A stretch of 20,539 nt of DNA, taken from positions 1 through 20,539 of the IMG/VR virus record IMGVR_UViG_3300047666_000428. One strand, given 5' to 3'. The position numbers and the translations under genes are program-made. Under the pieces are notes generated by a model. It was given only the letters and a program-made list of their open reading frames with translations, did no database searches and was not told where the DNA came from. How positions within the stretch are numbered: position 1 is the first letter of the stretch; every line of letters starts with the position of its first letter. This DNA comes from a virus. This document shows positions 11,699 to 13,217 of this stretch, one piece after another.

Positions 11699-12073
11699 TT
11701 ATATTGCAGTTAACACTAAAATGTTAGATGTTGAATCATCTTGTACTGTCCAGGTGTAATGAACATTATCAAAGTCAACTACTGTTCTGTTGTGAAACTT
11801 ACGAATGTTAACACCGTCGCCTGTACCAGTGACATATCCCTTAACAACCATTTCGCCAGCATCTGGCACATCTTTGTCGACTAGAACGCAAGACCCGGCA
11901 TTACCCGATCCGTCTGCTGCGTCGTTGACTTGAAATTTAGTTTCTGATCTTTGTGAAATTATTATTCCATTAACTGAAACAGCGTTTGCACCTACTTTAA
12001 CTGTTGCTGGCATTGTGCCGTCTTCGGTTCCGCCTGTGGTACCGAGGTATCTTTTATTAATTGGACGTCCCAT
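11699..12073 (-). CDS. Small virion structural protein, 124 aa
   Basis: This is the first gene of the fibre module. The start MGRPINKRYLGTTGGTEDGT is followed by a beta-rich body with GIIISQRSETKFQVNDA, VLVDKDVP, GYVTGTGDG and a closing VHYTWTVQDDSTSN. The MGRPINKRY opening is familiar from small structural proteins of marine T4-like phages. The ribosome site AGGAG is six bases before the ATG, strong for this window, and a late-type promoter plus a leader hairpin lie upstream. High expression as a virion part is likely. The exact location in the particle is unknown. Confidence 0.83.
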   Translation of the reverse strand: MGRPINKRYLGTTGGTEDGTMPATVKVGANAVSVNGIIISQRSETKFQVNDAADGSGNAGSCVLVDKDVPDAGEMVVKGYVTGTGDGVNIRKFHNRTVVDFDNVHYTWTVQDDSTSNILVLTAI

Positions 12074-12101
12074 TTGTTTCTCCTATGTTGACGTTCTAGG
12101 T

Positions 12102-12124
12102 CTACGCGGAGGGTCTCCGCATAA
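12102..12124 (-). promoter_or_regulatory. 5'-leader hairpin of the fibre operon
   Basis: The minus strand folds as GCGGAG-ACC-CTCCGC, extended by TTAT/GTAG with two G-U pairs to about ten base pairs. It lies between the GATAAATA box and the AGGAG of the first fibre-module gene, so it would be in the untranslated leader. It has no T-tract, so it is not a normal terminator. Transcript stabilisation or translational control are possible roles. Confidence 0.45.
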
Positions 12125-12151
12125 GTCTGTTTGCACAGTTCTAGACACTTA

Positions 12152-12159
12152 TATTTATC
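12152..12159 (-). promoter_or_regulatory. Probable late promoter box GATAAATA for the fibre module
   Basis: The minus-strand GATAAATA lies about 79 bases upstream of the first fibre-module start codon and just downstream of a terminator-like hairpin, the expected place for a new transcript to begin. It is identical to the box at 8994-8987 and one base off the T4 late consensus. Confidence 0.55.
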
Positions 12160-12186
12160 AAAAGAACAGATAGGGTCGTCAAGAGA

Positions 12187-12212
12187 AAAGACTAGTCCGG
12201 AGACTAGTCTTT
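12187..12212 (-). terminator. Strong intrinsic terminator hairpin
   Basis: A perfect ten-base stem AAAGACTAGT/ACTAGTCTTT (extendable by one C-G pair, leaving a CGGA-type tetraloop) is followed on the minus strand by TTTTCTCTT. It would end transcripts coming from the 192-aa gene before the fibre module starts. On the plus strand the trailing tract is weaker (CTTTAATAG). Confidence 0.65.
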
Positions 12213-12511
12213 AATAGAACAGAGAAGAAAAAGTATAAAAATTGACTAAGACAAAGTGCATACAGGCGTATCCCATTAACGGCGTGGCCAGCGGCAAAAT
12301 TCAAAAAGCAAAATGCATAAGAATCATATTTCCAGTTAACAATGTGCAGGCACAATCAAGGCTAATAAGTAACTGGGTCAAGATTTGCTAAAATGAATAA
12401 ATCATTGAACATATGTTTATGATCACTTAGTGATCTCAAACGGAAGTCGATTTCTTTTTCTCTTTCTCCTCTGGGTAATTTACAGTTTTCACCGCATAAT
12501 TACCAAACTGT

Positions 12512-13090
12512 TTACAGGATACCAGCTTCTGTGAGCACTGGCAGGCTGTCTGTGTCGATTTCAATTTCGGTCTTCACATTTAATTCAAGAAGTGCGTCTT
12601 GTAGCAGCAACTTTCTCTTTTTCATGTCAACGACCTGCTTACGGAAATCTTCAATTTCGTTTCGTTTAAAAATTGATGTTTTGACCAAATCGTCGGTTTC
12701 TCCAAAGCGGTATGAATCACTTGCGCTAGAATCTCTAGCTTTAATCTTACCAAGCTTGCCACGGATTACAGAAATTTCAACTTGTGGCTTCAACTTTGAC
12801 AGCCTAGTCATATGTCCAATTTCTTTTTCAAGATGCGCGACCTTTGTAAGCGTGTCATTAACGCCTGCTGTGGCATTTGCACGAGCAACGTCACGACGAA
12901 TACCATACAATGCGTTCAGCAAGTTGGTGCGCGTGTGTAGGTTTGCAGAAAACGTGTCTCTTGCGGAAGCCATTACTGCCAATGGCTTCTGGAACTCATT
13001 AACACTGACATCAGTGGTAAGATCCAAAGAAGTAACTGCTTCATTAATTGCTGCTTGTACAGCGTTTGCCTTGCGTAGTGTAATTTTCAT
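12512..13090 (-). CDS. Coiled-coil protein of unknown function, 192 aa
   Basis: I do not recognise a family with confidence. The protein starts MKITLRKANAVQAAINEAV and is mostly charged and helical: a segment around residues 95-115 (TLTKVAHLEKEIGHMTRLSK) and another around 140-170 (RNEIEDFRKQVVDMKKRKLL) look like coiled coils. It ends with an acidic, beta-prone stretch (VKTEIEIDTDSLPVL). It has no membrane segment or signal peptide. An AGGAAC site is about nine bases before the ATG. The gene is alone between two terminators and has its own sigma-70-like promoter, unlike the late structural genes around it, so it may be expressed earlier or independently. Alternatively it may be a small structural or chaperone protein. 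Similar genes near gp23 in marine T4-like phages are plausible but unverified. Confidence 0.85.
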   Translation of the reverse strand: MKITLRKANAVQAAINEAVTSLDLTTDVSVNEFQKPLAVMASARDTFSANLHTRTNLLNALYGIRRDVARANATAGVNDTLTKVAHLEKEIGHMTRLSKLKPQVEISVIRGKLGKIKARDSSASDSYRFGETDDLVKTSIFKRNEIEDFRKQVVDMKKRKLLLQDALLELNVKTEIEIDTDSLPVLTEAGIL

Positions 13091-13132
13091 GTGCCTATGT
13101 TCCTATGTGCTGTTGTTTGTTGTGTTGTACTT

Positions 13133-13161
13133 AATATAGCATTACATACAGCAGAGGTCAA
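13133..13161 (-). promoter_or_regulatory. Sigma-70-type promoter with extended -10
   Basis: On the minus strand TTGACC (13161-13156; five of six to TTGACA) is followed by exactly 17 bases and TATATT (13138-13133; five of six to TATAAT), preceded by TGC, giving an extended -10. Predicted initiation lies about 35 bases before the ATG at 13090. A TGTAAATA late-like box overlaps just upstream (13173-13166). Confidence 0.68.
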
Positions 13162-13166
13162 CCTCT
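13153..13166. promoter_or_regulatory. Operator-like inverted repeat over the -35 box
   Basis: AGAGGT-CA-ACCTCT is a perfect six-base inverted repeat with a two-base centre, and it contains the whole -35 hexamer of the sigma-70-type promoter. A two-base loop is too short for a good RNA hairpin, so a dimeric DNA-binding protein is the more natural reading. This is inference. Confidence 0.4.
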
Positions 13167-13190
13167 ATTTACAGCGTTGTATAGTTTTTT

Positions 13191-13217
13191 GCCAAAAGAA
13201 AAGGCCCCGTAGGGCCT
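13191..13217 (-). terminator. Intrinsic terminator after the major capsid gene
   Basis: On the minus strand AGGCCC-TACG-GGGCCT is directly followed by TTTCTTTT. The GC-rich six-base stem, tetraloop and T-tract lie about 25 bases after the gp23 stop codon, a classic position. It should close the head-gene transcript. Confidence 0.82.

Follow-up and report, generated by a model that had tools for sequence, protein, structure and literature searches.

The window, that is, the whole stretch of 20,539 nucleotides that was analysed (IMG/VR record IMGVR_UViG_3300047666_000428), belongs to a giant T4-like phage, its gp23 sharing 65-71% identity with the proteins of Vibrio 2.275.O, Phosso, GAP32, PA5oct and phages of this kind. 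Next to gp23, on the minus strand, it carries an ORF of 192 amino acids, located at 12512-13090 by an ORF check, and a feature that the sequence-only reading had overlooked, a ~300-nt RNA gene at ~12214-12511, located 3' of the stop codon and ahead of the terminator. The components of this unit are listed below (L numbers designate loci).

13194-13217, minus strand: intrinsic terminator after gp23, an insulator; L009, L011 and L015 have a similar one at this position
13133-13161, minus strand: sigma-70 promoter TTGACC-17-TATATT with extended -10 TGC; position and form kept in relatives
12512-13090, minus strand: gene of the 192-aa protein, predicted all-alpha with a DIP1984-like fold; phage family of 55 members
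12214-12511, minus strand: ~300-nt structured noncoding RNA (RNA Y), directly 3' of the stop codon; core of the covariance model R1 at 12226-12382
12474-12504, minus strand: 5' hairpin P2 of RNA Y (GGTAATT...AATTACC)
12460-12473, minus strand: 5' strand of the long-range helix P1 of RNA Y, CAGAGGAGAAAGAG
12332-12376, minus strand: internal stem P3 of RNA Y (CCAGTT...AACTGG)
12295-12311, minus strand: UUG repeat run of RNA Y, period 7, TTGCTTTTTGAATTTTG
12220-12233, minus strand: 3' strand of P1, CTTTTTCTTCTCTG
12181-12212, minus strand: intrinsic terminator closing the unit of gene and RNA; other terminators there in L018, L038, L048, L052 and L081

The sequence-only reading had described an insulated cassette with a host-type promoter inside the structural region, bounded by a terminator after gp23 and a strong hairpin downstream of the 192-aa gene. 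Both boundaries were recovered, the terminator as AGGCCCTACGGGGCCT-TTTTC (13217-13202, minus strand) and the hairpin as AAAGACTAGTC-TCCG-GACTAGTCTTTT (12181-12212), and the cassette as a whole is supported, the promoter being kept in relatives. The 192-aa gene stood as well, but not as the only gene of the unit, since an unannotated structured RNA is also present.

The near-ideal sigma-70 promoter was likewise confirmed, consisting of TTGACC (13161-13156), a 17-bp spacer and TGC-TATATT (13138-13133), and no other site in the window combines 10 of 12 matches with the TG of an extended -10. As a class, sigma-70-like sites in the window are at chance level (66 vs 56 expected, sd 7), and this particular promoter stands above chance because it is conserved in relatives, which makes the evidence evolutionary. 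Nine gp23-linked loci, including the window, keep TTGACN/TCGACC, a spacer of 16-17 bp and TANNNT with TG; in the relatives (gp23 identity 82-97%) the promoter lies 28-42 nt upstream of the same ATG. Whether relatives of the 192-aa gene keep the same promoter had been proposed as a check, and in the gp23-linked loci they do. Matches of 10 of 12 positions were found for 7/24 copies in which the RNA lies downstream of the gene, vs 9/115 control ORFs (Fisher p 0.008). In the upstream arrangement the RNA begins just 3' of TTGACA-16/17-TATAAT with 11-12 of 12 matches in 11/19 copies, many loci of a tRNA-array lineage having the full consensus ahead of the RNA, and other upstream-type copies are placed directly behind tRNAs. 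In sequence comparison, TTGACA/TATAAT-like hexamers, with a spacing inside the 16-18 bp typical of sigma-70 promoters, are conserved before the unit, suggesting that it may be expressed early or throughout infection (or constitutively).

Late-type boxes had been proposed for the genes on both sides. This held for the downstream side, where GATAAATA boxes at 12159 and 8994 (minus strand) precede the downstream operons, and did not hold for the gp23 side, as no late-type box was found within the window before gp23 or the gp23 operon. In the interval from the GATAAATA box to the next gene's start codon lies a match to the freshwater-2 motif (RF02980) at 12071-12140 (minus strand), just under threshold (43.8 vs 49.9 bits); in L011 (6900-6970, plus strand) the motif exceeds the threshold. 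Given this position, the metagenomic motif may represent a 5' leader of late mRNA in giant phages.

The location of the gene bears on a possible role in the virion, which the sequence-only reading had doubted. That the gene adjoins gp23, here and in many of the relatives, would be in keeping with an ordinary small protein associated with capsid or tail and preceded by a fortuitous sigma-70 match, but the promoter is conserved, and in other phages the gene is found well away from gp23, either within tRNA arrays or surrounded by metabolic and hypothetical genes. This explanation is very improbable; the finding that other phages have the module outside a structural-gene context supports that earlier doubt and argues that the module is not a virion component. 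In one relative (L007, 4187-5773, minus strand) a 528-aa ORF, homing-endonuclease-like by eye, lies on the opposite strand between gp23 and the module, and isolates too have nuclease genes after gp23; from both observations the site seems to be an insertion hot spot.

In all close relatives both the gene and the 300 nt that follow are retained, including loci with a neighbour other than gp23. In the window the longest stop-free stretches of this region measure 18-54 codons, and RNA Y shows a folding z of -2.65. An alignment of 21 copies revealed a 5' hairpin, the long-range helix P1, which closes RNA Y as a whole, and an internal stem with a GAAAUAU-like stretch after it. Covariation supports this fold: 92.1% of the cells are paired vs 34-52% in slid versions of the alignment, double-change cells number 73 vs 8-21, and 23 of the 30 base pairs have changes on both sides. 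Compensated changes in P1 also distinguish lineages (GGGGCGGGGACGGAAG/CTTCCGTCCCCGCTCT in Kikimora, GGGGTGGAAGCGG/CCGCTTCCACTCT in CcrPW). A search of the window with Rfam 15 (4227 models) found nothing over RNA Y, freshwater-2, outside it, being the only match, and the search of other loci gave no family over RNA Y.

The 3' half of RNA Y contains UUG triplets strictly spaced by 7 nt, as in TTGCACATTGTGGGTTGCACTTTGTTTTTTGCAAGTTG of L024. Across 44 RNAs, 138 UUG pairs at 7 nt were observed vs 11.6 expected from dinucleotide shuffles, and 1 pair at 6 nt vs 11.5 expected, figures that overstate independence since the sequences are related. The RNAs of GAP32 and pEa_SNUABM_47 have UUG/UG repeats spaced by 8 nt. 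One reading of these repeats is that they constitute a repeated protein-binding site.

A profile search with the protein recovered 231 viral contigs, from which 80 loci were retrieved. The model R1, trained on downstream copies alone, found the RNA beside nearly every protein relative in the viral contigs, downstream of the gene in one lineage and upstream, on the same strand, in the tRNA-array lineage, which R1 matches as well. The searched contig loci with no R1 match are either incomplete (L054 and L060) or have a recognisable divergent copy upstream (L073 and L077). Conversely, searching with a DNA pattern that represented only the RNA yielded 12 strong R1 matches, all in protein-carrying contigs (10 with the protein in the same fragment, the other 2 being fragments of known carrier contigs). 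Bacterial genomes gave no match with the protein and six with the RNA pattern, all lacking the protein and, by appearance, heptad microsatellites or chance; four of the six score 17-20 bits with R1, its noise floor. Period-7 microsatellites of the TTGCATT kind, which mimic the UUG run, occur in unrelated bacterial genomes (L153-L158).

In 12 of the 23 upstream-type loci, a ~75-aa ORF separating the protein gene from RNA Y encodes a homologue of the RNA-polymerase omega subunit (PF01192; L059, L064, L070, L079, L080, L082, L083, L090, L094, L095, L045 and L075), with RNA_pol_Rpb6 of Pfam matching two of these ORFs at E 2e-13 and 7e-12. Several of these loci (L064, L079, L094 and L095) and others, L072 and L055 among them, have a second conserved stretch of ~210 nt directly 3' of the protein stop codon, designated RNA X, which begins with CAGACCCC, has no Rfam match, is followed further on by a tRNA-Met and may be another unnamed structured RNA.

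The variable arrangement of the two parts is relevant to the idea that RNA Y is a cis element, a 3' or 5' untranslated region controlling protein synthesis or mRNA stability with no action in trans. A predicted single transcript for protein and RNA in the window and an adjacency that is nearly obligate would both be expected of such an element; against this, RNA Y is found upstream or downstream, split off from the protein gene by the omega ORF or, in L084, by another RNA and a tRNA, and in many cases it is preceded by a full-consensus promoter of its own or placed within tRNA arrays. We consider a purely cis-acting element quite unlikely; autoregulation by the protein is possible.

The protein also has relatives in cultured phages, with homologues in GAP32, pEa_SNUABM_47, Vibrio 2.275.O, Paride and Vp_R1 (profile search) as well as in Caulobacter and Brevundimonas giant siphophages, and pairs of RNA and protein resembling that of the window were recognised in GAP32, pEa_SNUABM_47, Vibrio 2.275.O and CcrColossus. 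Paride excepted, the gap after the protein gene measures ~285-337 nt in most of the cultured phages, 274 nt in Vibrio 2.275.O and 215 nt in Vp_R1, and the gaps examined show a fold with a long closing helix. R1 did not match the RNAs of Dolichocephalovirinae, GAP32 and pEa_SNUABM_47, which were assigned by a 285-337-nt gap in the same place, a long P1 with compensating changes, UUG/UG repeated every 7 or 8 nt, and folding z scores between -3.5 and -6.5 in the three that were scored. In Vibrio 2.275.O, R1 gave 19.9 bits beside the protein gene, a value within the noise floor, so that this assignment relies on position and the P1 helix and not on the score. No RNA was visible adjoining the gene in Paride; the DNA pattern search of this phage, in which the gap lengths were mis-specified, carries little weight.

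The homology and structure search that had been suggested for the 192-aa protein placed it in a phage family and showed that its predicted fold resembles that of 3KDQ from Corynebacterium diphtheriae. The AlphaFold model (51 sequences, pLDDT 91) consists of long helices and a short strand pair, and 3KDQ was the best solved structure in both Foldseek (prob 0.99, E 0.046, a match of moderate strength) and VIA (Z 10.8 over 141 residues, 18% identity), which points to a shared fold at the level of predicted structure. We take 3KDQ to be DIP1984, of the family DUF6847 (PF20935). Viral models matched in the structure search include those of CcrColossus, pEa_SNUABM_47 and Vp_R1. The PF20935 profile gave no match above cut-off in the three phage records searched, and Pfam, NCBIfam, PHROGs and PADLOC returned nothing informative on the protein; matches to DNA polymerase beta from a profile search of PDB sequences were rejected as chance. 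R6, K7, R65 and K160 are invariant across the family. Binding of RNA has a counterpoint in the charge of the family, which is not strongly basic (median pI 6.0; 9.3 for the protein of the window).

These data also bear on the reading of the pair as a type III-like toxin-antitoxin or abortive-infection system, in which a toxic protein would be neutralised by direct RNA binding, as in ToxIN or AbiF/RCd22. AbiF offers a precedent for such pairs in phages (PMC12373285), and here as well the protein adjoins a structured, repeat-bearing RNA that is sometimes upstream with its own promoter. The structural matches, on the contrary, are DIP1984 and long-helix proteins, with neither ToxN nor HEPN among the matches listed; matches to PADLOC defence models are weak and inconsistent (best E 0.007), the AbiF motif RF03085 was not matched in the Rfam searches, and the order of the window type is protein gene first and then RNA, with no terminator between them. 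A toxin-antitoxin pair is accordingly regarded as unlikely.

The near-obligate adjacency in either order, the own promoters and terminators, the covariation and the repeats support a protein-RNA module. We think it likely that this is a two-component phage module in which a small helical protein and a structured RNA of ~300 nt, most likely binding each other, form a stable ribonucleoprotein (RNP) that works in trans, and the occurrence of protein and RNA as neighbours across many unrelated giant phages suggests that the cassette is probably a new phage RNA-protein machine. In the window, the host sigma-70 promoter would drive a single transcript comprising the ORF followed by RNA Y and ending at the hairpin, with the upstream terminator shielding the unit from gp23 read-through. 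Several copies of the protein would bind along the UUG repeats, with the long P1 helix holding these in place, and the resulting RNP, made early or throughout infection, would act in trans on the host gene-expression machinery.

Transcription or translation as the target is suggested by the neighbours alone, namely tRNA arrays, the large phage RNA GOLLD (RF02032) and the phage omega subunit. Omega genes are present in 11/27 carrier records, in some of them far from the module, and GOLLD scores above threshold in 16/39 carrier contigs; the absence of both from many carriers makes this link weak. As a tentative extension, the module might represent a new class of phage RNP in which the UUG heptads of an RNA scaffold align several copies of the DIP1984-like protein, the ordered assembly remodelling host RNA polymerase or translation at take-over, in some lineages together with the phage omega.

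The adjacent omega is a clue to an RNA-protein system with which some giant phages may modify host RNA polymerase, and the pair may provide a first handle on a possible role of the DIP1984-like fold. Since it is carried by cultured phages (GAP32 and Erwinia, Caulobacter, Brevundimonas and Vibrio phages), deletion, tagging and pull-down are feasible.

Among known systems, AbiF with its ncRNA RCd22 (type III toxin-antitoxin-like) likewise associates a small protein with an adjoining structured RNA, one capable of action in cis and in trans. AbiF, however, is a HEPN RNase with a motif of the R-N-x3-H type, whereas the phage family has another predicted fold, no such invariant motif and no Pfam Abi_2 match, and the AbiF RNA is unrelated to RNA Y. 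DIP1984/DUF6847 has the predicted fold in common with the phage protein but differs at the profile level, and we know of no RNA partner for the cellular DUF6847 family. OLE RNA with the Oap proteins is also a structured RNA with dedicated proteins, but it is cellular and ~600 nt long, with no Rfam match between OLE and RNA Y. GOLLD, a large structured phage RNA often near tRNA islands, is similar to RNA Y in these respects, and many contigs carry both, in the order GOLLD, tRNA, RNA Y and protein in L044. RNA Y as the 5' half of GOLLD was considered and rejected; in the related contig G001, GOLLD is located at 85 kb, RNA Y at 241 kb, and in the window GOLLD had no match at E<=1, against the >150 bits taken to define it. 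To our knowledge, neither a protein partner nor a function is known for large phage RNAs of the GOLLD and ROOL kind. GOLLD assembles into RNA-only cages, for which no protein partner was described (PMC12286853), whereas RNA Y, which does not match the GOLLD model, is the smaller of the two, is found together with GOLLD in one and the same phage and is linked to a protein. That a protein may have an RNA dedicated to it is an established idea; judged against the open-access literature and the known families tested, none of which was found to accommodate it, the pair appears to be new as a system, another conserved phage RNA absent from Rfam, here with its own protein gene.
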